A stretch of 64,000 nucleotides of DNA from Limnomonas spitsbergensis (lineage: Eukaryota; Chlorophyta; Chlorophyceae; Chlamydomonadales): the NCBI GenBank assembly GCA_037349105.1, contig JAYJMM010000120.1, forward strand, positions 4,158,001 through 4,222,000, in the 5' to 3' direction. The translations under genes were made by a program, and so were the position numbers. Shown here piece after piece: positions 1 through 62,400 of the stretch (position 1 is the first letter of the stretch; each line of letters opens with the position of its first letter). The notes under the pieces are model-generated. The model did not search any database and was not told the DNA's origin. It was given only the letters and a program-made list of their open reading frames with translations.

Positions 1-2857
1 AATAGTGTGTTCTTCTCACCCCCTCCCCTACAGCCTGAGCCGCAAGGACTGCGAAAACAACAAGCCTGATGTCACCCCTGCGTAATAGTGTGTTCTTCTC
101 TTCCCCTCCCTTACAGCCTGAGCCGCAAGGACTGCGAAAACAACAAGCCTGATGTCACCCCTGCGTAATAGTGTGTTCTTCTCTCCCCCTCCCCTACAGC
201 CTGAGCCGCAAGGACTGCGAAAACAACAAGCCTGATGTCACCCCTGCGTAATAGTGTGTTCTTCTCACCCCCCTCCCCTACAGCCTGAGCCGCAAGGACT
301 GCGAAAACAACAAGCCTGATGTCACCCCTGCGTAATAGTGTGTTCTTCTCTCCCCCTCCCCTACAGCCTGAGCAGCAAGGACTGCGAAAACAACAAGCCT
401 GATGTCACCCCTGCGCAATAGTGTGTTCTTCTCACCCCCTCCCCTACAGCCTGAGCCGCAAGGACTGCGAAAACAACAAGCCTGATGTCACCCCTGCGTA
501 ATAGTGTGTTCTTCTCTCCCCCTCCCTTACAGCCTGAGCCGCAAGGACTGCGAAAACAACAAGCCTGATGTCACCCCTGCGTAATAGTGTGTTCTTCTCT
601 CCCCCTCCCCTACAGCCTGAGCCGCAAGGACTGCGAAAACAACAAGCCTGATGTCACCCCTGCGTAATAGTGTGTTCTTCTCAACCCCCTCCCCTACAGC
701 CTGAGCAGCAAGGACTGCGAAAACAACAAGCCTGATGTCACCCCTGCGTAATAGTGTGTTCTTCTCACCCCCCTCCCCTACAGCCTGAGCCGCAAGGACT
801 GCGAAAACAACAAGCCTGATGTCACCCCTGCGTAATAGTGTGTTCTTCTCACCCCCTCCCCTACAGCCTGAGCCGCAAGGACTGCGAAAACAACAAGCCT
901 GATGTCACCCCTGCGTAATAGTGTGTTCTTCTCACCCCCCTCCCCTACAGCCTGAGCAGCAAGGACTGCGAAAACAACAAGCCTGATGTCACCCCTGCGT
1001 AATAGTATGTTCTTCTCTTCCCCTCCCCTACAGCCTGAGCCGCAAGGACTGCGAACACATCAAGCCTGATGTCACCCCTGCGTAATAGTGTGTTCTTCTC
1101 ACCCCCTCCCCTACAGCCTGAGCCGCAAGGACTGCGAAAACAACAAGCCTGATGTCACCCCTGCGTAATAGTGTGTTCTTCTCACCCCCCTCCCCTACAG
1201 CCTGAGCCGCAAGGACTGCGAAAACAACAAGCCTGATGTCACCCCTGCGTAATAGTATGTTCTTCTCTCCCCCTCCCCTACAGCCTGAGCCGCAAGGACT
1301 GCGAAAACAACAAGCCTGATGTCACCCCTGCGTAATAATGTGTTCTTCTCACCCCCTCCCCTACAGCCTGAGCCGCAAGGACTGCGAAAACAACAAGCCT
1401 GATGTCACCCCTGCGTAATAGTGTGTTCTTCTCACCCCCCTCCCTTACAGCCTGAGCCGCAAGGACTGCGAAAACAACAAGCCTGATGTCACCCCTGCGT
1501 AATAGTATGTTCTTCTCTCCCCCTCCCCTACAGCCTGAGCCGCAAGGACTGCGAAAACAATAAGCCTGATGTCACCCCTGCGTAATAGTGTGTTCTTCTC
1601 ACCCCCTCCCCTACAGCCTGAGCCGCAAGGACTGCGAAAACAACAAGCCTGATGTCACCCCTGCGTAATAATGTGTTCTTCTCACCCCCTCCCCTACAGC
1701 CTGAGCCGCAAGGACTGCGAAAACAACAAGCCTGATGTCACCCCTGCGTAATAATGTGTTCATCTCACCCCCTCCCCTACAGCCGGAGCCGCAAGGACTG
1801 CGAAAACAACAAGCCTGATGTCACCCCTGCGTAATAGTGTGTTCTTCTCACCCCCCTCCCTTACAGCCTGAGCCGCAAGGACTGCGAAAACAACAAGCCT
1901 GATGTCACCCCTGCGTAATAGTATGTTCTTCTCTCCCCCTCCCCTACAGCCTGAGCCGCAAGGACTGCGAAAACAATAAGCCTGATGTCACCCCTGCGTA
2001 ATAGTGTGTTCTTCTCACCCCCTCCCCTACAGCCTGAGCCGCAAGGACTGCGAAAACAACAAGCCTGATGTCACCCCTGCGTAATAATGTGTTCTTCTCA
2101 CCCCCTCCCCTACAGCCTGAGCCGCAAGGACTGCGAAAACAACAAGCCTGATGTCACCCCTGCGTAATAATGTGTTCATCTCACCCCCTCCCCTACAGCC
2201 GGAGCCGCAAGGACTGCGAAAACAACAAGCCTGATGTCACCCCTGCGTAATAGTGTGTTCTTCTCACCCCCCTCCCCTACAGCCTGAGCCGCAAGGACTG
2301 CGAAAACAACAAGCCTGATGTCACCCCTGCGTAATAGTGTGTTCTTCTCACCCCCCTCCCCTACAGCCTGAGCCGCAAGGACTGCGAAAACAACAAGCCT
2401 GATGTCACCCCTGCGTAATAGTGTGTTCTTCTCTCCCCCTCCCCTACAGCCTGAGCCGCAAGGACTGCGAAAACAACAAGCCTGATGTCACCCCTGCGTA
2501 ATAATGTGTTCTTCTCACCCCCTCCCCTACAGCCTGAGCCGCAAGGACTGCGAAAACAACAAGCCTGATGTCACCCCTGCGTAATAGTGTGTTCTTCTCA
2601 CCCCCTCCCCTACAGCCTGAGCCGCAAGGACTGCGAAAACAACAAGCCTGATGTCACCCCTGCGTAATAATGTGTTCATCTCACCCCCTCCCCTACAGCC
2701 TGAGCCGCAAGGACTGCGAAAACAACAAGCCTGATGTCACCCCTGCGTAATAGTGTGTTCTTCTCACCCCCTCCCCTACAGCCTGAGCCGCAAGGACTGC
2801 GAAAACAATAAGCCTGATGTCACCCCTGCGTATTCTTCTCACCCCCCTCCCCTACAG
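1..2857 (+). repeat. 83-bp tandem array; each unit is a 3' splice site plus the start of exon 1
   Basis: About 34 head-to-tail units of 83-84 bp run from the left edge to the true exon 1. Each has a C-rich pyrimidine tract, CCCTACAG and then the first bases of exon 1 (CCTGAGCCGCAAGGACTGCG), followed by non-exonic sequence including GTAATAG. Units differ at a few sites (CGTAATAGTG vs CGTAATAATG; AGCCGC vs AGCAGC). A five-unit pattern carrying the CATCTC variant near 1750 recurs near 2167. The last unit is shortened by about 7 bp just before exon 1. Using an upstream acceptor would give 16 codons and then TAA. Confidence 0.97.
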
Positions 2858-2965
2858 CCTGAGCCGCAAGGACTGCGACATGAACGCCATCAAAGCCGGC
2901 CAAGTGGGTGCCTTGACCACCAGTGCGGAGCAGAAGGAGATATTGCAGGAAATTGAGGCGCTCAG
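2858..2965 (+). CDS. ISE2: Exon 1 in window: helicase motif IV segment
   Basis: The acceptor is TACAG at 2853-2857 and the donor is AG|GTATGC at 2966. The first base completes a codon, after which the frame reads LSRKDCDMNAIKAG. SRKxC is the motif IV region of Ski2-like helicases. The last two bases (AG) join G of the next exon to make Arg. The first 21-22 bases and the acceptor are reiterated about 34 times upstream. Confidence 0.85.
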
Positions 2966-5900
2966 GTATGCATGCCCGCACATTCGACTCGCCCTCCCTC
3001 GGCTTGAGATGTATCGTTTCTTTAAATGCCCTGCTTTCAGGGCGAATACCCAGCCGGAACTCTCGGTTTTTTACTTTGAACTACCGATGAGGGTCGCTCA
3101 CATGGAATGTAACCCTCGGTCCCAAATAGCATGTTGTGACTTGATTTTACAACTTTGTCATGTCTTTATTATGACTCTGCTATGACTTATGACTCCATCA
3201 TGACTTCATTATCACTTCATTATGACTTACGACGTCATGAGGGAGGGTAAGGCCTGAGGGAGGGGACTGAAATAGGCCCCCGGGCCTCATTGTCCGGCCC
3301 AGTCACTGTGTGATAGGGGCACTGGAGTGGGTGTCCTGGTTAACGAGGGGAAGGCTGTAGGTGATCAGGGTGGCCGGGTGGAGAGATGGCAAGGGAGGAG
3401 CGAGGCTGTGGGTTCCCTTGAGGGAGGAGCGAGGCTGTGGGTGCCCTTGCTGCCGACAGGGAGCAGACAGAGGTGTTGCAGGAGATCAGGGGGGACGGGT
3501 CGAGGGATAGGGAGGGCAGAGCCGCTGCCGCCGCCGCTGCTGCCGCCGCCATCGCTGCTTGCCATTCCTGTCCCTGATGAAGCACTGCTGCTGCTGCTGC
3601 AGCTGCTGCTGCTGCAGCTGCTGCTGCTGCAGCTGCTGCTGCTGCAGCTGCTGCTGCTGCTGCTTCTGCTGCTGCCGGACTGACTGTTGCCTTCGCTGCC
3701 CTGTGGGGCTGAATGTTGCTGAATGTTGCAGCTGCTGCAGCTGCTGCTGCTGCCCTGCCGGAATCACTTTTAATGCTGCTGCTGCTCTGTCGGGCTGACT
3801 GTTGCCGCTCTGCTGGGCTGACTGGCTGCCGCTGCTGCTTCCCTTCAGGTTGGACCAGCCTGAGGCGGTGCGCGCCAAGATGGAGCACGCCCTGGTGCAC
3901 GGCTTTGCGTCCCACCACGCAGGGCACCTGCCCGGGTGGAAGTCCCTGGTGGAGCGGCTCTTCCAAAAGGGACTGTGCAAGATTGTGAGCATACCAGGGA
4001 GGGTGGAATTGAGGGGGGACACCTGGGGCCTGGGGGCAGCAAACTAGGACTGCAAGATTGAGAGCATCCCAGGGTGGGGGGACACCTGGGGCCTGGGGGC
4101 ATCATGGAGCTGCCTTTTCCCGATTTCGAGATTTGTTTAAGAGGCGTTTGTTGTTTGTGGGTCTTCTGGTAGAGAGGATAGCTGGTTGAGAAGCCTGTCA
4201 GGCTTCCAGGTTAAAGGAGCTGCCATGTTTCCATTCATTAGAGAGGAATGTGAGTTCCGCGGGAGAGGGAACAGTTGGTTTCGAGCCACCTTTCGCCGCA
4301 TTCCAGTTCGTTTTGACAGGTCTGAAACAAATATTTCGGGCGAGGGTCACAGCTTGCAGTAGATGCTTGTCAGATGACATATTTTTCTGCTCAAAGAGCT
4401 CGGTTAATGAAGGCGTGGGCCATGACCTCTCTGCCCAGTGCCCTTTTTTTCTAGGTGGCTTTGTTGGTTTGAAGGTGTGATTGGGTGTTCCAGTGTGTCT
4501 GTGTGTGTGTGTGCTGGGCCAGCAGATTTCAAGCCCCGATGGCCCTCCTTGCTCCTCTCTGGAAATGAGTTAAAAATTCCAATAACAAAAAGTATTAAAC
4601 CCTGAATATTTTTTCTCCTATCCACGCCTCTCTCGATTGATAGCAGGCACTCTCTAAGGGGACTCTGTCTGCAGGCCGCAAAATGCCAGTTTGACAACCC
4701 TCATCTTGCTCCTCTCTCCGTCCTAGGTGTTTGCGACAGGGCCTCATCATGCCGGCCCTGACTTCCCTCTCCTTGCTCCTCTCCTAAGCTGCCGGCCTCA
4801 GATGGCCAGCTTTGACGACCCTCCTCTTGCTCCTCTCTTCGTCCTTGGTGTTTGCAACAGGGACTCGAGCTGCTGACCTCGTATTGCCATACCTCGACCC
4901 CATGATCAATTTCAGGAAAGTTTGTTGGGCCTAACTAGTAAAACGAGGAGCGAAATCTAGTGGCTTATGCCGGCCCTGACGTCCCTCTCCTTGCTCCTCT
5001 CCCAGGTATTTGCGACAGGGACCCTGGCTGCTGGCCTCAACATGCCGGCTCGCACGACCATCATCTCAGCTCTGGGCAGGAAGACGGACGATGGGGTCAA
5101 GCTGATGCCACACAACGATCTGCTGCAGGTGGGGGGGGGGCGGGTTTAATCACTGGTTTCACTTGGCTCGGCCACAGGTCGGTGTCATTTTAGCTACCTC
5201 GTAGCCTCTGGCCGGAGGCCCCATGCACCCGCAACCATGCTGCGTGGGCCTGTGCCTGTAGGCTGTGAGTGCCTGTGCCTGTAGGGGAGTCAAGTCTTGG
5301 CCCCAATTGAGCCTTCAGTGGATGCGGGGCGGGCTCTTAGCCAGAAAAAATAGGACTGCTGCACAGCCAGTGCACAGAAAGAGGGGCTGGCAGATCCGTG
5401 GTGTCAGCCCGGGTTTGTCAAAATTTGGCACACAGCCGGGCCAGATTATGAAGAGCACAGATGCCTTGGGTTTGCTAGAAGGGAGCACACCCTGATGCAA
5501 GTATAGCTTGCTTTCAGGCGCTGTTGCCCGCGCTTGTTCAATTGTGCTGCACAGACGGCAGGGGGGGGCAGGGTGCTGGCGCTTTGACATGACAAGGCAC
5601 GGCCGACCCTGGCAGGACCATTGTTTTTGTCACATACCGTTAGGCATCGGCAATATACTTTACATGTCCCGCCAATGTCAAGTACACCACATCTATGATA
5701 CCGTGTATGGATCTCACGTGACTGTATGCTGCACAGATGGCGGGGCGGGGCGCCAAGGCTTTGACACGACGAGGCATGGCTGACCCTGCGCTGAACCATT
5801 GTTTGTCACATGCTGTGTGTATGGATATAAACAAGTTTTGGATGTTATTCAACAAACCTTAGGCTTTGGACGAATTTCAAAGCGAGACGGAAGTGGCCCA

Positions 5901-50900: not shown

Positions 50901-53900
50901 CCTCACATGTGCCCCCTGCTGCTGCTGCCTCTGTTCATTGCCTTAGTGGCCTCACATGTGCCCCCTGCTGCTGCTGCCTCTGTTCATTGCCTTAGTGGCC
51001 TCACATGTGCCCCCTGCTGCTGCTGCCTCTGTTCATTGCCTTAGTGGCCTCACATGTGCCCCCTGCTGCTGCTGCCTCTGTTCAGTGCCTTAGTGCCTCA
51101 CATGTGCGCCCTGCTGCTGCTGCCTCTGTTCAGTGCCTTAGTGGCCTCACATGTGCCCCCTGCTGCTGCTGCCTCTGTTCATTGCCTTAGTGGCCTCACA
51201 TGTGCCCCCTGCTGCTGCTGCCTCTGTTCATTGCCTTAGTGGCCTCACATGTGCCCCCTGCTGCTGCTGCCTCTGTTCATTGCCTTAGTGGCCTCACATG
51301 TGCGCCCTGCTGCTGCTGCCTCTGTTCATTGCCTTAGTGGCCTCACATGTGCCCCCTGCTGCTGCTGCCTCTGTTCAGTTGCCTTAGTGGCCTCACATGT
51401 GCCCCCTGCTGCTGCTGCCTCTGTTCATTGCCTTAGTGGCCTCACATGTGCCCCCTGCTGCTGCTGCCTCTGTTCATTGCCTTAGTGGCCTCACATGTGC
51501 CCCCTGCTGCTGCTGCCTCTGTTCATTGCCTTAGTGGCCTCACATGTGCCCCCTGCTGCTGCTGCCTCTGTTCATTGCCTTAGTGGCCTCACATGTGCCC
51601 CCTGCTGCTGCTGCCTCTGTTCAGTGCCTTAGTGGCCACACATGTGCCCCCTGCTGCTGCTGCCTCTGTTCATTGCCTTAGTGGCCTCACATGTGCCCCC
51701 TGCTGCTGCTGCCTCTGTTCATTGCCTTAGTGGCCTCACATGTGCCCCCTGCTGCTGCTGCCTCTGTTCATTGCCTTAGTGGCCTCACATGTGCCCCCTG
51801 CTGCTGCTACCTCTCTTCATTACCTTAGTGGCCTCACATGTGCCCCCTGCTGCTGCTGCCTCTGTTCATTGCCTTAGTGGCCTCACATGTGCCCCCTGCT
51901 GCTGCTGCCTCTGTTCATTGCCTTAGTGGCCTCACATGTGCCTCCTGCTGCTGCTGCCTCTGTTCATTGCCTTAGTGGCCTCACATGTGCCCCCTGCTGC
52001 TGCTGCCTCTGTTCATTGCCTTAGTGGCCTCACATGTGCCCCCTGCTGCTGCTACCTCTCTTCATTGCCTTAGTGGCCTCACATGTGCCCCCTGCTGCTG
52101 CTGCCTCTGTTCATTGCCTTAGTGGCCTCACATGTGCCCCCTGCTGCTGCTGCCTCTGTTCATTGCCTTAGTGGCCTCACATGTGCCTCCTGCTGCTGCT
52201 GCCTCTGTTCATTGCCTTAGTGGCCTCACATGTGCCCCCTGCTGCTGCTGCCTCTGTTCAGTGCCTTAGTGGCCTCACATGTGCCCCCTGCTGCTGCTGC
52301 CTCTGTTCAGTGCCTAAGTGGCCTCACATGTGCCCCCTGCTGCTGCTGCCTCTGTTCATTGCCTTAGTGGCCTCACATGTGCCCCCTGCTGCTGCTGCCT
52401 CTGTTCATTGCCTTAGTGGCCTCACATGTGCCCCCTGCTGCTGCTGCCTCTGTTCATTGCCTTAGTGGCCTCACATTGCCTTAGTGGCCTCACATGTGCC
52501 CCTGCTGCTGCTGCCTCTGTTCATTGCCTTAGTGGCCTCACATGTGCCCCCTGCTGCTGCCTGCCTCTGTTCATGCCTTAGTGGCCATCACATGTGCCCC
52601 CTGCTGCTGCTGCATCTGTCATTGCCTTAGTGGCCTCACATGTGCCCCCTGCTGCTGCTGCCTCTGTTCATTGCCTTAGTGGCCTCACATGTGCCCCTTG
52701 CTGCTGCTGCCTCTGTTCATTTGCCTTAGTGGCCTCACATGTGCGCCCTGCTGCTGCTGCCTCTGTCAGTGCCTTAGTGGCCTCACATGTGCCCCTGTGC
52801 TGCTGCCCTGTTCATGCCTTATGTGGCCTCACACTTTGCCCCTGCTGCTGCTGCCTCTGTTCATTGCCTTAGTGGCCTCACATGTGCCCCCTGCTGCTGC
52901 TGCCTCTGTTCATTGCCTTAGTGGCCTCCACATGTGCCCCCTGCTGCTGCTGCCTCTGTTCATTGCCTTAGTGGGCCTCACATGTGCCCCTTGCTGCTGC
53001 TGCCTCTGTTCAGTGCCTTAGTGGCCTCACATGTGCCCCCTGCTGCTGCTGCCTCTGTTCATTGCCTTAGTGGCCTCACATGTGCCCTGCTGCTGCTGCC
53101 TCTGTTCATTGCCTTAGTGGCCTCACATGTGCCCCCTGCTGCTGCTGCCTCTGTTCATTGCCTTAGTGGCCTCACATGTGCCCCCTGCTGCTGCTGCCTC
53201 TGTTCATTGCCTTAGTGGCCTCACATGTGCCCCCTGCTGCTGCTGCCTCTGTTCATTGCCTTAGTGGCCTCACATGTGCCCCCTGCTGCTGCTGCCTCTG
53301 TTCATTGCCTTAGTGGCCTCACATGTGCCCCCTGCTGCTGCTGCCTCTGTTCATTGCCTTAGTGGCCTCACATGTGCCCCCTGCTGCTGCTGCCTCTGTT
53401 CATTGCCTTAGTGGCCTCACATGTGCCCCCTGCTGCTGCTGCCTCTGTTCATTGCCTTAGTGGCCTCACATGTGCCCCCTGCTGCTGCTGCCTCTGTTCA
53501 TTGCCTTAGTGGCCTCACATGTGCCCCCTGCTGCTGCTGCCTCTGTTCATTGCCTTAGTGGCCTCACATGTGCCCCTGCTGCTGCTGCCTCTGTTCAGTG
53601 CCTTAGTGGCCTCACATGTGCCCCCTGCTGCTGCTGCCTCTGTTCATTGCCTTAGTGGCCTCACATGTGCCCCTGCTGCTGCTGCCTCTGTTCATTGCCT
53701 TAGTGGCCACACATGTGCCCCCTGCTGCTGCTGCCCTCTGTTCAGTGCCTTAGTGGCCTCACATGTGCCCCCTGCTGCTGCCTGCCTCTGTTCATTGCCT
53801 TAGTGGCCTCACATGTGCCCCCCTGCTGCTGCTAGCCTCTGTTCAGTGCATTAGTGAGCCTCACATGTGCGCCCTGCTGCTGCTGCTCTGTTCAGTGCCT

Positions 53901-56900
53901 TAGTGGCCTCACATGTGCCCCCTGCTGCCTGCTGCCTCTGTTCATGCCTTAGTGGCCTCACATGTGCCCCCCTGCTGCTGCTGCCTCTGTCATTGCCTTA
54001 GTGGCCTCACATGTGCCCCCTGCTGCTGCTGCCTCTGTTCATGCCTTAGTGGCCTCACATTGTGCGCCCTGCTGCTGCTGCCGTTCATTGCCTAGTGGCC
54101 TCACAATGTGCGCCCTGCTGCTGCTGCCTCTGTTCAGTGCCTTAGTGGCCTCACATGTGCCCCCTGCTGCTGCTGCTCTGTTCATTGCCTTAGTGCCTCG
54201 CATGTGCCCCCTGCTGCTGCTGCCTCTGTTCATTGCCTTAGTGGCCTCACCATGTGCCCCTGCTGCTGCTGCCTCTGTTCATTGCCTTAGTGGCCTCACA
54301 TGTGCCCCCTGCTGCTGCTGCCTCTGTTCATTGCCTTAGTGGCCTCACATGTGCCCCCTGCTGCTGCTGCCTCTGTTCATTGCCTTAGTGGCCACACATG
54401 TGCCCCCTGCTGCTGCTGCCTCTGTTCATTGCCTTAGTGGCCTCACATGTGCCCCCTGCTGCTGCTGCCTCTGTTCATTGCCTTAGTGGCCTCACATGTG
54501 CCCCCTGCTGCTGCTGCCTCTGTTCATTGCCTTAGTGGCCTCACATGTGCCCCCTGCTGCTGCTAGCCTCTCTTCATTACCTTAGTGGCCTCACATGTGC
54601 CCCCTGCTGCTGCTGCCTCTGTTCATTGCCTTAGTGGCCTCACATGTGCCCCCTGCTGCTGCTGCCTCTGTTCATTGCCTTAGTGGCCTCACATGTGCCT
54701 CCCTGCTGCTGCTGCCTCTGTTCATTGCCTTAGTGGCCTCACATGTGCCCCCTGCTGCTGCTGCCTCTGTTCATTGCCTTAGTGGCCTCACATGTGCCCC
54801 CTGCTGCTGCTACCTCTCTTCATTGCCTTAGAGGCCTCACATGTGCCCCCTGCTGCTGCTGCCTCTGTTCATTGCCTTAGTGGCCTCACATGTGCCCCCT
54901 GCTGCTGCTGCCTCTGTTCATTGCCTTAGTGGCCTCACATGTGCCTCCTGCTGCTGCTGCCTCTGTTCATTGCCTTAGTGGCCTCACATGTGCCCCCTGC
55001 TGCTGCTGCCTCTGTTCAGTGCCTTAGTGGCCTCACATGTGCCCCCTGCTGCTGCTGCCTCTGTTCAGTGCCTAAGTGGCCTCACATGTGCCCCCTGCTG
55101 CTGCTGCCTCTGTTCATTGCCTTAGTGGCCTCACATGTGCCCCCTGCTGCTGCTGCCTCTGTTCATTGCCTTAGTGGCCTCACATGTGCCCCCTGCTGCT
55201 GCTGCCTCTGTTCATTGCCTTAGTGGCCTCACATGTGCGCCCTGCTGCTGCTGCCTCTGTTCATTGCCTTAGTGGCCTCACATGTGCCCCCTGCTGCTGC
55301 TGCCTCTATTCATTGCATTAGTGGCCTCGCATGTGCCCCCTGCTGCTGCTGCCTCTGTTCATTGCCTTAGTGGCCTCACATGTGCCCCCTGCTGCTGCTG
55401 CCTCTATTCATTGCCTTAGTGGCCTCACATGTGCCCCCTGCTGCTGCTGCCTCTGTTCAGTGCCTTAGTGGCCTCACATGTGCCCCCTGCTGCTGCTACC
55501 TCTATTCATTGCATAGTGGCCTCACATGTGCCCCCTGCTGCTGCTGCCTCTGTTCATTGCCTTAGTGGCCTCACATGTGCCCCCTGCTGCTGCTGCCTCT
55601 GTTCATTGCCTTAGTGGCCTCACATGTGCCCCCTGCTGCTGCTGCCTCTGTTCATTGCCTAGTGGCCTCACATGTGCCCCCTGCTGCTGCTGCCTCTGTT
55701 CATTGCCTTAGTGGCCTCACATGTGCCCCCTGCTGCTGCTGCCTCTGTTCATTGCCTTAGTGGCCTCACATGTGCCCCCTGCTGCTGCTGCCTCTGTTCA
55801 TTGCCTTAGTGGCCTCACATGTGCCCCCTGCTGCTGCTGCCTCTGTTCATTGCCTTAGTGGCCTCACATGTGCCCCCTGCTGCTGCTGCCTCTGTTCATT
55901 GCCTCACATGTGCCCCCTGCTGCTGCTGCCTCTGTTCATTGCCTTAGTGGCCTCACATGTGCCCCCTGCTGCTGCTGCCTCTGTTCATTGCCTTAGTGGC
56001 CTCACATGTGCCCCCTGCTGCTGCTGCCTCTGTTCATTGCCTTAGTGGCCTCACATGTGCCCCCTGCTGCTGCTGCCTCTGTTCATTGCCTTAGTGGCCT
56101 CACATGTGCCCCCTGCTGCTGCTGCCTCTGTTCATTGCCTTAGTGGCCTCACATGTGCCCCCTGCTGCTGCTGCCTCTGTTCATTGCCTTAGTGGCCTCA
56201 CATGTGCGCCCTGCTGCTGCTGCCTCTGTTCATTGCCTTAGTGGCCTCACATGTGCCCCCTGCTGCTGCTGCCTCTGTTCATTGCCTTAGTGGCCTCACA
56301 TGTGCCCCCTGCTGCTGCTGCCTCTGTTCATTGCCTTAGTGGCCTCACATGTGCCCCCTGCTGCTGCTGCCTCTGTTCAGTGCCTTAGTGGCCTCACATG
56401 TGCCCCCTGCTGCTGCTGCCTCTGTTCATTGCCTTAGTGGCCTCACATGTGCCCCCTGCTGCTGCTGCCTCTGTTCATTGCCTTAGTGGCCACACATGTG
56501 CCCCCTGCTGCTGCTGCCTCTGTTCATTGCCTTAGTGGCCTCACATGTGCCCCCTGCTGCTGCTGCCTCTGTTCATTGCCTTAGTGGCCTCACATGTGCC
56601 CCCTGCTGCTGCTGCCTCTGTTCATTGCCTTAGTGGCCTCACATGTGCGCCCTGCTGCTGCTGCCTCTGTTCAGTGCCTTAGTGGCCTCACATGTGCCCC
56701 CTGCTGCTGCTGCCTCTGTTCATTGCCTTAGTGGCCTCACATGTGCCCCCTGCTGCTGCTGCCTCTGTTCATTGCCTTAGTGGCCTCACATGTGCCCCCT
56801 GCTGCTGCTGCCTCTGTTCATTGCCTTAGTGGCCTCACATGTGCGCCCTGCTGCTGCTGCCTCTGTTCATTGCCTTAGTGGCCTCACATGTGCGCCCTGC

Positions 56901-58957
56901 TGCTGCTGCCTCTGTTCAGTGCCTTAGTGGCCTCACATGTGCCCCCTGCTGCTGCTGCCTCTGTTCATTGCCTTAGTGGCCTCGCATGTGCCCCCTGCTG
57001 CTGCTGCCTCTGTTCATTGCCTTAGTGGCCTCACATGTGCCCCCTGCTGCTGCTGCCTCTGTTCATTGCCTTAGTGGCCTCACATGTGCCCCCTGCTGCT
57101 GCTGCCTCTGTTCAGTGCCTTAGTGGCCTCACATGTGCGCCCTGCTGCTGCTGCCTCTGTTCAGTGCCTTAGTGGCCTCACATGTGCCCCCTGCTGCTGC
57201 TGCCTCTGTTCATTGCCTTAGTGGCCTCACATGTGCCCCCTGCTGCTGCTGCCTCTGTTCATTGCCTTAGTGGCCTCACATGTGCCCCCTGCTGCTGCTG
57301 CCTCTGTTCATTGCCTTAGTGGCCTCACATGTGCCCCCTGCTGCTGCTGCCTCTGTTCATTGCCTTAGTGGCCTCACATGTGCCCCCTGCTGCTGCTGCT
57401 GCCTCTGTTCATTGCCTTAGTGGCCTCACATGTGCCCCCTGCTGCTGCTGCCTCTCCTCAGTGCGGAGGTTATCCGTAAGCCAGTGGACATGGTGGCCAC
57501 TTACACTACGTCAGACGAGGTGCGAAGGCTGGATGGGCCGAGTAATAGCACAATAACCAGCATGGCTATCAAAGATCCATCCCTGTGAAGAGTGATCCAT
57601 GTGTTGCCGATATGAGGACGCTCTCAATGCTTGATGGGCGCAGACAAAAGCCTGGAACGGCCCTCAAATGGCCCTCAATCAAAAGCCTGAAATGGTTATG
57701 AGATGGCCCTTAAACAAGTGATGTGCTGTCCTTAAGACCCATTTACCGCTGTTGTCTCCTGGTTGGCCCCTCACCGGTTACCACTCATGTTCTTTACCCA
57801 GGTCGTGAGGGCTGTGGAATCGCTGGAACCCACGAGGATGATGCTTGAGGGACTCCAGTCCGATGGAGGTGATCTCAGGGGCCAGGGGACCCGAAGGCTG
57901 GAAAACATGTATTTTGAACAAGAGACGGGATGGGTACATCCATACGGTATTCGATGAGGGGACTGGACGGGTGAAAAAACCTATTTTGACAAACGGAACG
58001 GATGTTGAGAACACAGTCGCTGGTTTAAGGGTTAAGGGTTGTGCTGCCCTGATGCCCCAGCCGTTCTCTCTGCTTGCGTGCGTTTGTCCCTGACCCCTTC
58101 ACCCATCTGCTCGCCCCCCCCCCTGCCTCTGCCCCTGGCACACACCAGGCCTCAGCAACTGGAACGACTCGCTGCTGGTGGACTATCGCCTGGCTGGGCT
58201 GGTGGAGGCGTGGGCCGCTGGGGCCTCTTGGGTGCAGATCATGGGGGACTCGACGCTAGACGACGGCGACGTGGCGCGCCTGCTGATGCGCACAGGAGAC
58301 CTCCTGAGACAGGTGCGCACGGCGGGGAGGGGGGAGGAGGCAGGGGGCGGGGGTAGGGGCGGGGGCGGGGGCAGGGGCGGGGGCCTGTAGGGGGGCAGCA
58401 GCAGACGTATCTAAAACGGCTGCCTCTTTGGTCCCTTTTCGGGGACATCACAGGTGGCCGTAGGAATCGCATGTTATCGTTAACGGGGTGCTGCATTTGG
58501 CTGTTGTTGTCGCTGTGACGCTGGCGTCCTCTCATGAGTTGATGGCAGACTCACTGCTGGCTCCTGATGACATCATCTTGCGGTTGTTGTCAAGATGTTT
58601 GCGCAGCCTTTCGTTAGCCTAGTTTTCAAAGGGGGGCCCCCTTCACCTCTTCTGTGCCTGATGTCCTCAGTGCTGCAAACTGTTTGTTTAGTGCCTGCAT
58701 GATTCTTTCTTTTGCTCTTCCGCCCTGTCGTAAATTTTAAGCATACGATTTCCTAGGCGCAAAAACTACAAATATTGTTTATTGCTTTTTGAAAGTATTT
58801 TATTTTCTCATAATTTGAAGATGCCTCGCCCCTGTTGTCCCCTTGTTTGCAGATTTCGCGTAATGCTAACCTGCTGCCGAGCTTGAGGTCCTCCGCACAG
58901 GAGGCGCTCTTGGGCATGGACCGCAAGCCGATCGCCGACCCTAATATATCACAATAG
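2858..58957 (+). CDS. ISE2: ISE2-type chloroplast DExH-box (Ski2-like) RNA helicase, 3' portion of a giant gene; 16 joined exons, 5' end outside window
   Basis: Sixteen exons join in one frame (2,026 bp, about 674 codons plus TAG). Visible blocks are motif IV (SRKDC, residues 2-6), the HHAG helix (58-61), motif V (82-96), motif VI (QMAGRAGRRG, 122-131), an insert/beta-barrel region (about 140-480) and a C-terminal DSHCT domain (about 482-674) containing GLVEAWAAGASW and DDGDVARLL. The Walker A and DExH motifs would lie 5' of the window. Ski2/Mtr4 family helicases unwind RNA using ATP. The C-terminal half resembles plant ISE2, which acts in chloroplast RNA processing and translation, more than cytosolic SKI2 or nuclear MTR4. 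That family assignment is from recognition, not a search. Introns make up over 96% of the span and are largely tandem repeats copied from the exon edges. Motif V has Gly (residue 86) where the family has Glu. Chloroplast location is inferred from the family only. Confidence 0.85.
2966..3584 (+). other. Intron between exons 1 and 2, non-array part
   Basis: No gene seen. At 3134-3240 there is a degenerate tract of ATGACTT-type words. At about 3462-3492 a stretch resembles the last third of exon 1 (GGAGCAGA...TTGCAGGA...), probably a decayed exon copy. Two short direct copies of GAGGAGCGAGGCTGTGGGT lie at about 3395-3445. Confidence 0.6.
3585..3850 (+). repeat. CTG-rich minisatellite before exon 2 (15-bp unit, then looser CTG runs)
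   Basis: At 3585-3666 a 15-bp unit made of four CTG plus CAG repeats about five times. It is followed to 3840 by looser CTG and GGGCTGACTGTTGCC words. Reading frames in this stretch give poly-Leu, poly-Cys, poly-Gln or poly-Ala and are not coding. It directly precedes the exon 2 acceptor and supplies part of its upstream sequence. Confidence 0.9.
3849..3984 (+). CDS. ISE2: Exon 2 in window: HHAG helicase segment
   Basis: The acceptor is CCCTTCAG (ends 3848) and the donor ATT|GTGAGC at 3985. It encodes 45 codons after a 1-base split codon, including HGFASHHAGHLPGWKSLVE and FQKGLCKI. GFASHHAGxLPxWK is diagnostic of the region between motifs IV and V in ISE2 and other Ski2-like helicases. It ends on a codon boundary. 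A partial copy of its 3' end follows at about 4048-4062 with the donor GT changed to GA. Confidence 0.93.
3985..4100 (+). repeat. Duplicated exon 2 end with 5' splice site (75 bp apart)
   Basis: The exon 2 end and the intron start at 3985 recur at about 4048-4100 (GGACTGCAAGATT, then GAGAGCATCCCAGGG, then ACACCTGGGGCCTGGGGGCA). In the second copy GT has become GA, so it cannot act as a donor. Confidence 0.85.
4101..4659 (+). other. Intron sequence, no feature recognised
   Basis: I see no gene, RNA or clear repeat in this stretch. It has a short TG run at about 4495-4514 and is less GC-rich than the surrounding introns. Confidence 0.5.
4660..5005 (+). repeat. Three tandem copies of the exon 3 acceptor region
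   Basis: The segment CTTGCTCCTCTC...AG then GTTTGCGACAGGG appears with AG at 4725-4726 (intact), at about 4846 (AG lost, CTTG) and at the true site 5004-5005. The CTTGCTCCTCTC and GCCGGCCCTGAC words are shared among copies. All three have GGG where the motif V Glu codon should be. Confidence 0.85.
5006..5128 (+). CDS. ISE2: Exon 3 in window: helicase motif V
   Basis: The acceptor is CTCCCAG (ends 5005) and the donor CAG|GTGGGG at 5129; the exon is 41 whole codons. It begins VFATGTLAAGLNMPART, which is motif V, but the family consensus is ATETLAAG. Here Glu is Gly (GGG). The exon ends in the Gln that opens motif VI. Two decayed copies of the acceptor and exon start lie upstream at about 4727 and 4847. 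Confidence 0.93.
5129..5540 (+). other. Intron sequence between exons 3 and 4, first part
   Basis: No gene or clear array. It begins with a G10 run straight after the donor. Short direct repeats such as GCCTGTGCCTGTAGG occur at about 5250-5285. Confidence 0.5.
5541..6001 (+). repeat. Copies of the exon 4 (motif VI) acceptor and exon
   Basis: Two upstream copies carry TGCTGCACAG plus a damaged motif VI exon, with exon-like starts at 5555 and 5737 (the true one is 6002). The 5737 copy keeps ATGGCGGGGCGG but has lost 4 bp, breaking the frame. The copies share the following intron words CCATTGTTTxxGTCACATxCxGTGTGTATGGAT. Both acceptor AGs are intact. Confidence 0.88.
6002..6066 (+). CDS. ISE2: Exon 4 in window: helicase motif VI
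   Basis: The acceptor is TGCGCAG (ends 6001) and the donor AG|GTGAGT at 6067; length 65 bp. It reads MAGRAGRRGFDTEGHCVVLQ. With the Gln closing exon 3 this gives QMAGRAGRRG, an intact motif VI including the arginines that contact ATP. Two diverged copies with their own acceptors lie upstream (exon-like starts at 5555 and 5737). Confidence 0.95.
6067..6254 (+). other. Intron sequence with AGATCTAGATC words
   Basis: Short overlapping words (GAACCxCCTCTGCxGATCTAGATC) recur at 6107-6160. No coding sequence was recognised. Confidence 0.5.
6255..6358 (+). repeat. 21-bp tandem repeat, about five copies
   Basis: Units built from GATCCAGATCCAGTCTCTCAG repeat five times with 1-2 changes each. Because 21 is a multiple of three, both strands stay open here by chance. 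Each unit ends in a pyrimidine-AG that resembles a weak acceptor. Confidence 0.93.
6446..6641 (+). repeat. Decayed exon 5 acceptor copy followed by a C-rich pyrimidine tract
   Basis: At 6452-6500 GATCAGGTGATTGAGGGCGCTG and the following bases resemble the true exon 5 start (CTCAGGTTTGAGGGCGCTG) 185 bp downstream. Between them (6520-6640) is a CCCTCCC/CCTCCC-rich tract that forms the long polypyrimidine run of the true acceptor. Confidence 0.7.
6642..6767 (+). CDS. ISE2: Exon 5 in window: post-motif VI segment
   Basis: The acceptor is CACCTCAG (ends 6641) and the donor AG|GTGGGG at 6768. It reads FEGAEEAFNIIKAGPEPL, then SQFAASYGLVINLL. This is the block after motif VI in ISE2-like proteins, where the start of the winged-helix region follows a conserved FxASYGxVLNLL-type segment. 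Both flanking codons are split and restore Arg. A diverged copy of the acceptor and exon start is seen at about 6452-6500. Confidence 0.92.
6768..7333 (+). other. Intron sequence between exon 5 and the 21-bp array
   Basis: No gene. At 6785-6870 GCATGGCATTGTT and GATGCAC(A/C)CCTGTG-type words occur twice, one of them partly inverted. The remainder is unique. Confidence 0.5.
7334..8515 (+). repeat. 21-bp tandem array (about 56 copies)
   Basis: The unit is CTCAGCTACAATTCAGTGCA plus C. Variants include TTCAG for CTCAG, ACGATTCAG and ACAATCCATTGC. One unit near 7475 has lost a base. Period 21 leaves a frame open for about 400 codons (LSYNSVH repeated), but the substitutions change the amino acids freely, so I read it as non-coding. 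Every unit carries two pyrimidine-AG acceptor-like words. Confidence 0.97.
8516..8828 (+). repeat. Duplicated exon 6 acceptor region (122 bp apart)
   Basis: CCGCCCTGxAATGCTTxCTTGTTxTGTGGxTCTGCTTGxGCTCAG followed by GGCTTTCATCC occurs twice, with AG at 8705-8706 and 8827-8828. The second is the true exon 6 acceptor. A few decayed 21-bp units (8725-8780) lie between them. Use of the first site would shift the frame. Confidence 0.9.
8829..8976 (+). CDS. ISE2: Exon 6 in window: winged-helix region
   Basis: The acceptor is GTGCTCAG (ends 8828) and the donor AAC|GTGGGT at 8977. After the split Arg codon it reads AFIQRSFGNFLQTEGQERRL and continues through a helical, charged stretch to QELN. ExxRxFIxxSFGxFL is the expected continuation in Ski2-like helicases. 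A copy of the acceptor and exon start (AG at 8706) lies 122 bp upstream. Confidence 0.9.
8977..9794 (+). other. Intron sequence between exons 6 and 7, decayed duplications
   Basis: No gene. At about 9585-9790 two segments share GAACCATCCCCCCTT followed by xGCAGG(G/C)TG(C/A)TGTCA; these resemble very old copies of the exon 7 acceptor and start. At 9160-9360 GGCCTGCC and GCCCACTC words recur. Confidence 0.5.
9795..9960 (+). repeat. Degenerate interstitial telomere-like tract (CCCTAAAA/CCCTAGA)
   Basis: The tract is built from ACCCTAAAACC, ACCCTAGACC and ACCATAGAC words in tandem. CCCTAAAA is the complement of the chlorophyte telomere unit TTTTAGGG. It is imperfect and interstitial, so it may be a simple intronic repeat rather than a telomere remnant. 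Confidence 0.7.
9961..10188 (+). repeat. Two upstream copies of exon 7, the second with an intact acceptor
   Basis: A diverged copy at about 9966-10040 still reads AVKLACPRVRDLQAKAPAE in place of AVKVARTRLRDLKAKALEE, but lacks an AG acceptor. A closer copy starts at 10075 after TTTTGTGTGCAG and preserves the first 12 codons almost exactly. The copies share the following CCCTATCCTTTTGTGTGCAG. The spacing between the last two acceptors is exactly 114 bp. Confidence 0.9.
10189..10311 (+). CDS. ISE2: Exon 7 in window: helical/insert region
   Basis: The acceptor is TGTGCAG (ends 10188) and the donor CAG|GTAGGC at 10312; 41 whole codons. It is strongly helical and basic (AAVKVARTRLRDLKAKALEE), ending NGLPRRVVLQ. 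An intact acceptor copy exactly 114 bp upstream (AG at 10073-10074) leaves the frame open between the two sites, so a 38-codon-longer exon is possible. A more diverged copy lies at about 9966-10040. Confidence 0.85.
10312..10667 (+). repeat. Intron between exons 7 and 8 with a CAGAACCAAA(C/A)-type repeat
   Basis: At about 10508-10622 words such as AAAACAGAACCAAACC and AACAGGATAACACT repeat several times. CCTAAAACCCTAAACCC at 10629-10645 is telomere-like. The stretch 10312-10507 is unremarkable. Confidence 0.75.
10668..10853 (+). CDS. ISE2: Exon 8 in window: insert/beta-barrel region
   Basis: The acceptor is GTCTGCAG (ends 10667) and the donor AAG|GTAGGT at 10854; 62 whole codons. It contains an acidic linker (DADEDEGALDLG) and ends PQFFACLGADNRLMK. 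The last part matches the xVxLGxDNxW strand found in this region of ISE2. The exon end and donor are repeated four more times downstream at 153-154 bp spacing. Confidence 0.87.
10830..11480 (+). repeat. 154-bp tandem array; each unit is the exon 8 end plus its 5' splice site
   Basis: GGGCTGACAACxGGCxxATGAAG|GTAGG(T/C)GCTG occurs with donor GT at 10854 (true), 11007, 11161, 11315 and 11469, at spacings of 153-154 bp. All five keep GTAGG. The intervening intron (TGTGTAGGCCCTT(A/C)AGGGCATGACC, GCTGAGGCG, TAACTGCTGCAG) is copied too. Use of a downstream donor would meet a TAA 13 codons past exon 8. Confidence 0.96.
11549..11633 (+). repeat. 26-bp tandem repeat (about 3.3 copies)
   Basis: The unit contains GCTGCGCACGCCGTATCGTG plus CACAAT, repeated almost perfectly. 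No coding potential is indicated. Confidence 0.92.
11634..11789 (+). other. Intron spacer between two repeat arrays
   Basis: Unique, with a decayed 26-bp-like piece (GCAGGCCGTATTGTAC) and one part-copy of the 154-bp unit (AGGCCCTGCAGGGCATGACC) at the right end. Confidence 0.5.
11790..12085 (+). repeat. 34-bp minisatellite nested in a decayed 154-bp unit
   Basis: About eight units of GGATGGGGGGTGGGGTAACT plus GCTGCAGCTGAGGA, some shortened. The sequence is a local amplification of the GCTGAGG...GTAACTGCTGCAG part of the 154-bp unit, and the array ends with that unit's own GACCTGATxATGxAATGACCTC. Confidence 0.92.
12086..12599 (+). other. Intron before exon 9, with TTTAGGG words and a TGATGTACCGC repeat
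   Basis: At 12248-12300 TATGGTTTAGGGTTATG recurs two to three times. At 12529-12583 a 12-bp word (CTGATGTACCGC) repeats about five times just before the acceptor. The rest is unique. Confidence 0.65.
12600..12723 (+). CDS. ISE2: Exon 9 in window: insert region
   Basis: The acceptor is GTGTGGCAG (ends 12599) and the donor GCCA|GTGAGT at 12724. It reads VSPIHIVSILEGVEGSLSPE, then EEHLIQSSHAMVRDKSWVNA. It follows the LGxDN strand of exon 8, as expected. It ends one base into a codon, so another exon is needed before exon 11. The end and donor are duplicated 67 bp downstream (GT at 12791). Confidence 0.82.
12712..12860 (+). repeat. 67-bp duplication of the exon 9 end and 5' splice site
   Basis: CAATGCAGCCA|GTGAGTGT followed by GGxATTTGAATTTGAATTGT and GTGTGGGTGCTGTCGATGTG occurs twice, with donor GT at 12724 and 12791. 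The second donor is intact. Confidence 0.93.
13121..13263 (+). CDS. ISE2: Exon 10 in window (tentative): poorly conserved linker exon
   Basis: Exon 9 ends at phase 1 and exon 11 starts at phase 0, so an exon of length 3n+2 is required between them. An acceptor CGTTCAG (ends 13120) and donor AAG|GTATGC at 13264 give 143 bp, which restores frame and has no stop. The donor is supported by three downstream copies of the exon-end/donor motif at about 57-61 bp spacing, the same pattern seen at recognised exons. The encoded sequence (ending RHWRMVENSTEVANEVVSQR plus K) is not recognisably conserved. An alternative acceptor ending at 12937 also fits the phase. Confidence 0.45.
13254..13445 (+). repeat. 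57-61 bp array; each unit is an exon-end-like CGGAAG|GTA donor
   Basis: CAxAG(C/T)GGAAG|GT recurs with GT at 13264, 13321, 13378 and 13439, followed by GGAGTGGGGxGGAxGGAG words and TGGCTCCAT. This is the pattern seen at recognised exon ends, which supports 13263 as the end of a real exon. Confidence 0.9.
13446..14057 (+). repeat. About 120-bp array; each unit is the exon 11 acceptor plus exon start
   Basis: CCCTGCTGxGCCCCCTCAG|GCCCTCAAGCAGGTG...CAGGATCTGGAGGCG recurs with junctions at about 13583 (AG lost), 13702, 13825, about 13948 (AG lost) and the true 14057. Units at 13703 and 13826 have intact acceptors; translation from them hits TGA after 26 codons. Copies read ALKQVAQDLEAYSPAA, while the true exon reads AFRQVMQDLEAHRKAS. 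Confidence 0.94.
14058..14219 (+). CDS. ISE2: Exon 11 in window: coiled-coil-like helical exon
   Basis: The acceptor is CCCCTCAG (ends 14057) and the donor AAG|GTGTGG at 14220; 54 whole codons. It reads AFRQVMQDLEAHRK, then a charged helix (ARRLLKKADTLKREVDGM) and GTWVIFK. ISE2 has a comparable helix rich in Lys, Arg and Glu before a Gly-Trp that opens the C-terminal domain. Four copies of the acceptor and exon start precede it. The downstream intron is 25,692 bp long. Confidence 0.85.
14220..14392 (+). other. Start of the 25.7-kb intron before the array
   Basis: Unique and A/T-richer than the surroundings. No feature seen apart from the donor GTGTGG at 14220. Confidence 0.5.
14393..37986 (+). 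repeat. 46-bp satellite-like array inside an intron (about 23.6 kb, roughly 510 copies)
   Basis: The unit runs GGTAGTACTGCAATTCTGCT, GTACCTGCGCCCTATCTTAC, CACCTT, and is highly homogeneous. Recurrent variants are TTCTGC/TCCTGC, TTACC/TTGCC, CTTGG/CTTAG, CTGAACC, TTCCGC and a 45-bp unit with CCGGGCCC. Variant order recurs as larger blocks; CTTAG units fall 11, 15, 11 and 15 units apart at the left end. Each unit has a small inverted repeat (TACCA-CCT-TGGTA). No stop-free frame crosses the body of the array. Copy number is estimated from length divided by 46. Confidence 0.98.
38020..39130 (+). repeat. C-rich minisatellite, unit about 60-68 bp (about 17 copies)
   Basis: The unit is CCTTCTCATAACCCTTTGCC, TGCTCCGCTCCCCCC, then ATTCTCCCCCCCTTATTCCGCC with variable C-run lengths. 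The + strand is almost purine-free except for short words. Long open frames on both strands (Pro/Leu-rich or Gly/Arg-rich) are composition artefacts. Confidence 0.96.
39131..39911 (+). repeat. Array of exon 12 acceptor copies (six upstream, last period 141 bp)
   Basis: Words like GCCCCCAG|GCC(C/G)TG(T/C)TGGA(A/C)GTCxTG recur with junctions at 39161, 39238, 39371 (AG lost), about 39502 (badly decayed), 39629, 39770 and the true 39911. The last three are exactly 141 bp apart. Four upstream copies keep a usable AG. Translation from 39771 stops after nine codons. Confidence 0.93.
39912..40099 (+). CDS. ISE2: Exon 12 in window: start of DSHCT domain
   Basis: The acceptor is TGCCCCCAG (ends 39911) and the donor CTCAG|GTGTGT at 40100. 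It reads AVLDVLITVGAIEAGTLRML, then PLGLVSRSFQGQNELWLALA and LNGPQLAAFLGALL. The G(Q/E)NELWLA and LxxPQLAA segments are close to the ISE2 C-terminal half. Six decayed or intact acceptor/exon-start copies lie upstream between 39160 and 39780. Confidence 0.95.
40100..41100 (+). repeat. Start of the 17.4-kb intron; decayed units of the exon 12 donor region and a dispersed repeat
   Basis: Four blocks (about 40225, 40565, 40785, 41020) share GGAGGxGGC and GCACCTGxxGGGG words. A GCGCGCTGCTCAGGCTTGT stretch at 40890-40909 resembles the exon 12 end and donor. At 40689-40722 a 34-bp segment is the exact reverse complement of 59445-59478. TTTAGGGTTCAGGGTTCAGGG at 40182-40202 is telomere-like. Confidence 0.6.
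41101..57455 (+). repeat. 49-bp satellite-like array inside an intron (about 16.35 kb, roughly 330 copies)
   Basis: The unit is GTGGCCTCACATGTGCCCCC, TGCTGCTGCTGCCTCTGTTC, ATTGCCTTA. Variants include GTTCAGTGCC, CTACCTCTCTTC, TGCATAG, GTGCGCCC, and a short unit lacking TTAGTGGCC. Larger blocks recur: the same variant string begins near 43397, 46129, 52181 and 54939. The array ends directly at the exon 13 acceptor, whose CTGCTGCCTCTCCTCAG|TGC is a variant of the repeat's own CTGCTGCCTCTGTTCA(T/G)TGC. Short open frames (Leu, Cys and Ala runs) are not coding. Confidence 0.98.
57462..57519 (+). CDS. ISE2: Exon 13 in window: DSHCT domain, short exon
   Basis: The acceptor is CTCTCCTCAG (ends 57461), directly at the end of the 49-bp array, and the donor GAG|GTGCGA at 57520. 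The split codon with exon 12 gives Ser, followed by AEVIRKPVDMVATYTTSDE. The preceding intron is 17,362 bp long. The pyrimidine tract of the acceptor is itself part of the last repeat unit. Confidence 0.85.
57520..57801 (+). other. Intron between exons 13 and 14
   Basis: 282 bp, mostly unique. AAAAGCCTGxAA and ATGGCCCT words recur at 57645-57715. Confidence 0.6.
57802..57868 (+). CDS. ISE2: Exon 14 in window: DSHCT domain, short exon
   Basis: The acceptor is TTTACCCAG (ends 57801) and the donor GGAG|GTGATC at 57869. It reads VVRAVESLEPTRMMLEGLQS plus DG and ends with one base of a Gly codon completed in exon 15. The phases on both sides agree. The introns on both sides are short (282 and 280 bp) and largely non-repetitive. 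Confidence 0.82.
57869..58148 (+). other. Intron between exons 14 and 15
   Basis: 280 bp. CCTATTTTGACAAACGGAACGG at 57979-58000 loosely repeats TGTATTTTGAACAAGAGACGG at 57908-57928. GTTTAAGGGTTAAGGGTT at 58022-58039 is telomere-like. The acceptor is preceded by a C-rich tract. Confidence 0.55.
58149..58312 (+). CDS. ISE2: Exon 15 in window: core of DSHCT domain
   Basis: The acceptor is CACACCAG (ends 58148) and the donor CAG|GTGCGC at 58313. It reads GLSNWNDSLLVDYRLAGLVE, then AWAAGASWVQIMGDSTLDDG and DVARLLMRTGDLLRQ. The WAxGxSW and DxGDxxRLLxRTxDLLxQ elements are hallmark DSHCT residues of Ski2/Mtr4/ISE2 proteins. Confidence 0.96.
58313..58852 (+). other. Last intron (540 bp)
   Basis: It starts with a GGGGGCGGGGGC-type G-rich run (58320-58400) that could form a G-quadruplex, then turns A/T-rich. 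No exon copy was seen, unlike most other introns of this gene. Confidence 0.6.
58853..58957 (+). CDS. ISE2: Exon 16 in window: terminal coding exon with stop
   Basis: The acceptor is CTTGTTTGCAG (ends 58852); 34 codons are followed by TAG at 58955-58957. It reads ISRNANLLPSLRSSAQEALL, then GMDRKPIADPNISQ. This matches the family C-terminus, where a helix of small residues is followed by MDRxPI. Termination here fits the usual ISE2 end point. Confidence 0.92.
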   Translation: MSRNANLLPSLRSSAQEALLGMDRKPIADPNISQ

Positions 58958-60284: not shown

Positions 60285-60600
60285 AGTGCACGTGGGGGAC
60301 ATTGGTGTGGCGCCGGCCACCGTGGGCCGCCCCACTGGGAATTGGCCAAACCCAGTGGGTATCCCCACCGTGGGGATACATGTCGTAGGGCTCCGTCATG
60401 GGTTGGCATCAGTGGGGTATGTCTGATGGGATACTCCCACGGTGGGTCCAAGTGAGAGGATTCCCCCACACTGGGCTTTCGCGATGGGCCGTACCACTCA
60501 TGGTCCCATATCGTGGGGATCCCCACATGGGGGGGACCCACAGTGGGACATCAACGATAGGCTGACCCACGGTCTTCTGACTATCACGGGGATCCCCACA
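60285..60600. repeat. Palindrome-rich stretch of CCCAC/GTGGG words
   Basis: Perfect inverted repeats include TATCCCCAC-C-GTGGGGATA (60360-60378), CCCAC-G-GTGGG (60437-60447) and the 14-bp GTGGGGATCCCCAC (60512-60525). Similar CCCAC or GTGGG words recur every 20-40 bp. I see no coding sequence. Confidence 0.8.
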
Positions 60601-62035: not shown

Positions 62036-62400
62036 GCCAGGGGGAGGAGGAAGAAGGGGGAGGAGGATGGAGGGGGAGGAGATGAGACAGTAGGACAGAT
62101 GTGTAGCGGAAGAGAGGGAGATGGGATGTTTATGACGGACAAGGCGCCTTTGTGCTTTCGGTGGGAGGATGAAGGATGAGCGGAGACGGGGAGGGGGAAG
62201 GGAAGGAGGAGGAGGAAGGGGAGGGAGGAAGGGGAGACGGAGAAGATGAGACAGTAAGACAGACTGGGAGGGGGAGGAGGAAGAGGAAGAGGAAGTGGGA
62301 GGAGGAAGGGGAGAGGGAGGAGATGGAGACAGTAGGTCAGATGTGTAGGGGAGAGGGAGGAAGGAGACATAGAGGACAGTAGACGGTAGGACCCAGATGA
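62036..62400 (+). repeat. Purine-rich GGGAGGAGG(A) tract
   Basis: GGAGG/GAAGG/GGGAG words fill most of the stretch, in diverged direct copies (GATGAGACAGTA(A/G)GACAGA(T/C) at about 62081 and 62242; GGAGAxAGTAG later). The strong strand asymmetry could support triplex or R-loop structures, which is inference only. Confidence 0.8.

Follow-up and report, generated by a model that had tools for sequence, protein, structure and literature searches.

A gene of the green alga Limnomonas spitsbergensis raises the question of how introns lengthen. The introns beside most of its exons appear to hold extra copies of the exon edge together with its splice site. An earlier note on this DNA reported such copies beside 13 of 16 exons. 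It proposed that tandem duplication across splice junctions is a self-sustaining route to intron growth, and that the process is genome-wide. Until now, boundary-spanning duplications were known from a few lancelet genes, where they were reported gene by gene as oddities. Craig and colleagues describe the introns of Chlamydomonas reinhardtii and of species close to it as unusually long, and leave the driving mechanism open (PMC8226300).

We analyzed a stretch of 64,000 nucleotides (the window, C120:4158001-4222000) in a genome of 260,226,709 bases in 124 contigs. The published description of the assembly gives 124 contigs, 260.248 Mb and 54.15% GC, and places L. spitsbergensis in a clade with Chlamydomonas eustigma (PMC11228838).

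Gene structure

The gene in the window encodes a plastid DExH15/ISE2-type RNA helicase. A profile search found the Pfam domain DSHCT, with Helicase_C just at the cut-off. The closest relative is a C. eustigma protein (69% identity over 99%), and proteins of other chlamydomonad algae come next. The 16 exons, located at 2858-58957, form one open frame, and all 15 introns have GT-AG ends. Aligned with the C. eustigma protein, 14 of the 15 exon joins are gap-free; the relative has four additional residues near the join of exons 7 and 8. The exons sum to 2,026 bp and the intron DNA within the window to 56,931 bp.

2858..2965, +, exon 1 (first in the window) of the DExH15/ISE2-type RNA helicase; frame, splice sites and alignment with the relative
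3849..3984, +, exon 2
5006..5128, +, exon 3
6002..6066, +, exon 4
6642..6767, +, exon 5; 12-bp exon-side match at 6461, no junction-spanning copy
8829..8976, +, exon 6
10189..10311, +, exon 7
10668..10853, +, exon 8
12600..12723, +, exon 9
13121..13263, +, exon 10
14058..14219, +, exon 11
39912..40099, +, exon 12
57462..57519, +, exon 13
57802..57868, +, exon 14; no copies
58149..58312, +, exon 15; no copies
58853..58957, +, exon 16, including the stop codon; no copies

Two other repeats are found in the window. Intron 6 contains an interstitial ACCCTAAA-like repeat (9796-9917), which we take to resemble the plant-type telomere repeat. Downstream of the gene, a 63-bp array of about 23 copies (60598-62036) has long open frames on both strands.

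Junction-spanning copies

Each junction in the window was searched with a 60-bp probe centred on it, against the adjoining intron only. A match was taken as a spanning copy if it scored at least 38 and extended at least 6 bp beyond the junction on both sides. Spanning direct copies are present at 11 of 31 junctions, affecting 11 of 16 exons. They are found at the acceptors of exons 1 (34 copies), 3 (2), 4 (2), 6 (1), 7 (1), 11 (4) and 12 (5), and at the donors of exons 2 (1), 8 (4), 9 (1) and 10 (1). The exon 1 array continues past the upstream end of the window for at least another 77 bp, giving 35 copies altogether.

1..2857, +, 83-bp array with 34 copies of the exon 1 acceptor and 21 bp of exon
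4051..4082, +, exon 2 donor junction copy, 88% identity, GT changed to GA; exon-only probe not significant
4692..4875, +, stretch with two diverged exon 3 acceptor copies (4692-4741, 4813-4875); junction probe
5543..5762, +, stretch with two exon 4 acceptor copies (5543-5585, 5707-5762); junction probe
8679..8717, +, exon 6 acceptor junction copy, 92%; junction probe
10045..10103, +, exon 7 acceptor junction copy, 95%; junction probe
10979..11478, +, four copies of the exon 8 donor junction spaced 154 bp; junction probe
12780..12820, +, exon 9 donor junction copy, 95%, 67-bp unit; junction probe
13310..13350, +, exon 10 donor junction copy, 83%; exon-only probe not significant
13567..13977, +, four copies of the exon 11 acceptor junction about 120-130 bp apart; junction probe
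39150..39788, +, stretch with five diverged copies of the exon 12 acceptor junction; junction probe

Exon-only probes, which sidestep the C-rich acceptor tracts, were compared with shuffled introns, a check that the earlier note had itself named. They exceed the shuffles at 8 of the 11 spanning junctions (P 0.01-0.05). At the exon 2 donor (P 0.23), the exon 10 donor (P 0.26) and the exon 6 acceptor (P 0.07) they are not significant, and these three cases therefore depend on the combined exon and intron match. Over all genes examined, local block shuffles of the introns gave 0/730 spanning matches, and reversed or reverse-complemented introns gave none at 44 helicase junctions.

The donors of exons 1 and 12, absent from the earlier list, have weak exon-only matches above all shuffles (score 29 each); the 60-bp probes found no spanning copy at either. 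Introns 13-15 (280-540 bp) have none at their six junctions. The exon 5 acceptor is without a spanning copy and has a 12-bp exon-side match only (score 24, above 100 shuffles). The exon 13 acceptor, considered as a junction duplication, was rejected: the array abutting it matches the intron side but just 3 bp of the exon.

41128..57455, +, 49-bp array (about 335 copies) that ends next to the exon 13 acceptor; 3-bp exon match

Thus 11 of the 13 reported cases stand as junction-spanning copies, and the two that fall, exons 5 and 13, are those already flagged as the weakest. The functional site had been described as always the exon-proximal copy, and in 11/11 confirmed cases the exon-proximal site keeps the protein frame. 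An intact protein requires this position, which is therefore not separate evidence of mechanism.

Other introns and genes

Eight further helicase introns, and the full intron before exon 1, are located in 20 kb upstream of the window (stretches L058 and L057); seven of these nine have copies. The first intron and a 4464-bp intron have weaker models here, and the modelled exons start at residue 128 of the related protein. Over the part of the helicase gene covered by the models, spanning copies are found at 17/48 junctions and in 15/24 introns. The 4.5-kb upstream intron (14840-19304 of the joined 20 kb) contains a donor-junction array of 27 copies that, unlike the other arrays, has mostly lost GT.

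Dynein heavy-chain genes were sampled through 83 exon matches to PF08393, from which 17 genes were taken. Introns were modelled by profile position, frame and splice motif. Exon pairs with non-adjoining profile positions were skipped, and 4 of the 51 adjoining pairs gave no model, leaving 47 introns. The residual gap at the join is none in 41, 1 residue in 1, 2 residues in 3, 3 residues in 1 and 4 residues in 1. Spanning copies are present at 25/94 junctions, in 21/47 introns and 13/17 genes; the matches are partly non-independent, as the paralogs L052 and L053 have two copies in common. Pooled with the helicase, the count is 42/142 junctions (20 donors, 22 acceptors), 36/71 introns and 14/18 genes.

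A chaperonin gene, the sole other class tested, has no copies in 3 usable introns. Of its 6 exon pairs, 1 was skipped and 1 yielded no model; among the 4 introns that could be modelled, 1 received a nonsensical score, and this model is still counted in the totals of 146 junctions, 75 introns and 39 introns without copies. In control searches the junction probes found 0/146 spanning matches in the reversed intron, 0/146 in its reverse complement and 0/146 in a foreign intron, with one foreign intron per junction. Two very large introns (4 junctions) were excluded from these controls and from the shuffles.

The copies are real, direct and local, and they are present in 13 of 17 dynein genes at other loci. 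Therefore the genome-wide process suggested in the earlier note is likely, on evidence from two gene classes in one genome.

Duplication at junctions and in intron interiors

We consider it probable that the copies reflect frequent local tandem duplication that is purged in exons and tolerated across junctions, with the decoy sites bypassed by exon definition. Short segments would often be duplicated in tandem within the introns of this alga. Copies landing inside exons would be removed by selection. A copy spanning a junction could survive because one complete junction still adjoins the exon, while the spare junction would pass to the intron. Repeated events, with array expansion of some units, would produce a longer intron with decoy splice sites. 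The spliceosome would pair the nearest acceptor and donor across the exon, so that the true site is chosen by position. The copies, their direct orientation and spacing, their excess over controls, their presence at many loci, the strength of the decoys and the background duplication of intron interiors are observed directly. The mutational process, the selection in exons and the splice choice by exon definition are what we infer.

Duplication is not confined to junctions. Across 46 dynein introns, a 60-bp window has a second copy in the intron with a probability of 0.26 at donors, 0.28 at acceptors and 0.47 in the interior (1,671 windows at least 100 bp from a junction; one intron above 3000 bp excluded). 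It declines into the exon, reaching 0/46 on each side at 90 bp. We also compared 53 helicase and dynein introns, excluding those below 300 or above 5000 bp, with equal one-sided search ranges. Nearby copies are then slightly commoner at junctions, with 18/53 donors and 20/53 acceptors against interior means per intron of 0.26 and 0.25. On average the difference is 0.10, and its 95% interval (-0.006 to 0.213) includes zero.

This slight excess leaves room for an alternative, in which splice junctions are favoured for duplication. Transcription- or splicing-linked breaks at exon edges would lead to tandem duplication there and drive intron growth. A placement model lends it weak support, with 11.2 junction-spanning families expected and 13 seen of 48. 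That event-level count used ungapped families, a less sensitive method that classed known spanning families, such as the exon 8 donor, as interior. Old junction copies, one half of which matches conserved exon, are detected more readily than old copies in the interior, and the largest array in the window, with a 46-bp unit, is interior. Together with the interval that includes zero, these points make a preference for junctions unlikely. Since interiors are duplicated similarly and the conserved exon half helps junction copies to be recognized, we regard these copies as the part of a general duplication process that can be seen.

14402..37985, +, 46-bp array of about 513 copies in the interior of intron 11, not a junction copy

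The 46-bp array occupies most of the 25.7-kb intron 11. Relatives of its unit, with 69-77% identity, are found in arrays on at least C97, C114, C111, C92, C87 and C83 and elsewhere on C120, and the unit is therefore a member of a dispersed family. Junction copies were rejected as the chief source of intron DNA in the window: the stretches reaching from the first junction copy to the junction itself account for 10.7% of it, and the 46-bp and 49-bp arrays for 70.1%. Counting the 49-bp array next to exon 13 as junction-born would raise the junction share to about 39%. Tandem Repeats Finder marks 34% of stretches L039-L059, which include the helicase upstream stretches; the published repeat table for L. 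spitsbergensis lists 0.10% satellites and 22.78% unclassified repeats (PMC11228838). A 1.6-kb dynein intron (L055, profile position 314) consists mostly of a 46-bp array of about 30 copies, and blastn found no match between it and the 46-bp unit of the window.

The proposal that duplication across junctions is a self-sustaining route to intron growth is thus borne out in part. The copies are real, direct and local. The data do not single out junctions, as interiors are duplicated almost as frequently. A junction-driven route of intron growth is possible, but general tandem duplication surviving at junctions suffices.

Choice of the splice site

The AG or GT is intact in 101/132 junction copies. 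With the exon 1 array and the upstream introns excluded, GT is kept in 23/25 donor copies (20.2 expected from overall identity) and AG in 26/33 acceptor copies (25.8 expected). AG is kept in 34/34 copies of the exon 1 array, and GT in just 7/27 copies of the upstream donor array. Sites were scored with a matrix trained on true sites. Of the 37 junctions that have an intact copy, 22 have a best copy that equals or exceeds the true site (donors 11/17, acceptors 11/20). True donors score slightly above the best copies (medians 10.6 and 9.8, P = 0.06), and true acceptors do not (P = 0.41).

Many decoys are therefore about as strong as the true site, which is probably chosen by position. Local strength does not clearly mark the true site, whereas exon definition, favouring the shortest exon, would. 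Site strength may still matter, as true donors are slightly stronger and one array is mostly without GT. Judging from the conserved reading frame, the copies would leave regular splicing undisturbed.

The near-equal strength of many decoys could also indicate selection in favour of decoys or spare sites that help, for instance, to tune splicing or gene expression. However, retention of the dinucleotides is near the expectation from overall identity, and one array mostly lacks GT. We regard such selection as very unlikely.

Content and origin of the copies

General tandem duplication, the reading preferred here, is consistent with the content of the copies. They are direct repeats that carry the unspliced junction, exon together with neighbouring intron. 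At 36 dynein and window junctions, the spacing to the nearest copy ranges from 45 to 265 bp, with a median of 120, and the copied part of the exon measures 7-80 bp (median 29). In 13/36 the spacing is divisible by 3, which is the share expected if no coding constraint acts. Intron length is greater where copies are present than where they are absent (medians 744 and 373 bp, n = 36 and 39, P = 0.0009). Equivalent introns of the dynein paralogs L052 (646 bp) and L053 (998 bp) have a donor copy and an acceptor copy in common. The L053 intron has a further acceptor copy, located within an insertion relative to the shorter L052. The comparison is direct, if unpolarised, evidence of introns differing in length through junction copies. 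An acceptor copy is also present in L051, a more distant paralog.

The copies could instead be traces of intron birth, in which an exon segment holding AGGT is duplicated in tandem. This route has been published for other genes, and it resembles the algal copies in that the tandem duplication touches splice signals (PMC4974935, PMC2891723). In those accounts the duplication makes a new intron; in the alga, existing introns gain spare junctions. Because the copies hold exon together with neighbouring intron, and joins of exon n to exon n+1 with at least 10 bp on each side are found in 0/75 modelled introns, we judge intron birth to be extremely improbable. RNA-mediated copying was rejected too. 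Three looser spliced-like matches among 62 introns rested on 6-8 bp of CAG-like sequence, and they disappear at 10 bp or more per side.

Chance likeness between C-rich or repetitive intron sequence and acceptors could be invoked where intron-side matches lack exon (exons 5 and 13) and at the 3 of 11 spanning junctions with non-significant exon-only probes, but for the spanning copies taken together it is refuted by the 8 of 11 significant exon-only probes and the controls (0/146 each), and it is almost certainly wrong.

Discussion

The proposed process, frequent tandem duplication tolerated at junctions, has a close parallel in the mirages of amphioxus. These are minisatellite-like duplications of intron-exon boundaries, described in the globin genes BflGb6 and BflGb9 and in Adh3, TnC (troponin C) and PGBD5 (PMC3087553, PMC3902484). 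In these reports either boundary is affected, splicing is normal, the units measure 10-72 bp in Adh3 and 150-160 bp in the globins, and many copies contain AG or GT. Like the algal copies, mirages are tandem direct repeats across donor or acceptor junctions, with similar unit lengths. Three mirage features are found in the alga: boundary-spanning direct repeats (42/142), involvement of both boundary types (20 donors, 22 acceptors) and AG or GT in the copies (101/132).

There are also differences. Mirages are reported from single genes of one animal lineage, whereas the algal copies are present in 36/71 introns and 14/18 genes. Normal splicing of the amphioxus globins is supported by RT-PCR in those reports; for the alga it is predicted from the conserved reading frame. 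Mirages are described as unstable in copy number between haplotypes, and the alga is represented by a single assembly in which two paralogs (L052, L053) differ in copies. The best reading is that the algal copies match mirages in the three features tested, differ in lineage and frequency, and are far more pervasive. Among the matches listed from the open-licence PubMed Central literature, none reports boundary duplications in algae.

Introner elements (see PMC4457414) share with the algal copies that they add intron DNA. Introners are similar introns at many sites. The algal junction probes match a foreign intron in 0/146 cases, with one foreign intron per probe, and the 46-bp array in the interior of intron 11 has distant relatives at other places in the genome.

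The observation in the earlier note is largely right, and it is more general than could be seen from the window. Between roughly a quarter and a third of the algal junctions examined, in two kinds of genes, have copies. If one in four junctions or more is affected in a green alga, boundary-spanning duplication would be a general way for introns to lengthen. The genome would then offer a natural experiment in how a splice site is chosen when several are nearly identical. Our findings suggest that, in such genomes, exon edges may be misplaced by gene-finding and RNA-mapping programs.

Tandem duplication would also be a testable mutational source for the long introns of C. reinhardtii and the species close to it, though this alga belongs to another clade of the same order. 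A bolder reading is that junctions are preferred for tandem duplication in this algal lineage, so that introns extend from their own ends in a ratchet shared by the whole lineage, and that the spliceosome tolerates dozens of equally strong decoys by choosing nearness across the exon rather than strength. We find this unlikely; if true, the ratchet could help to explain why chlamydomonad introns are unusually long.
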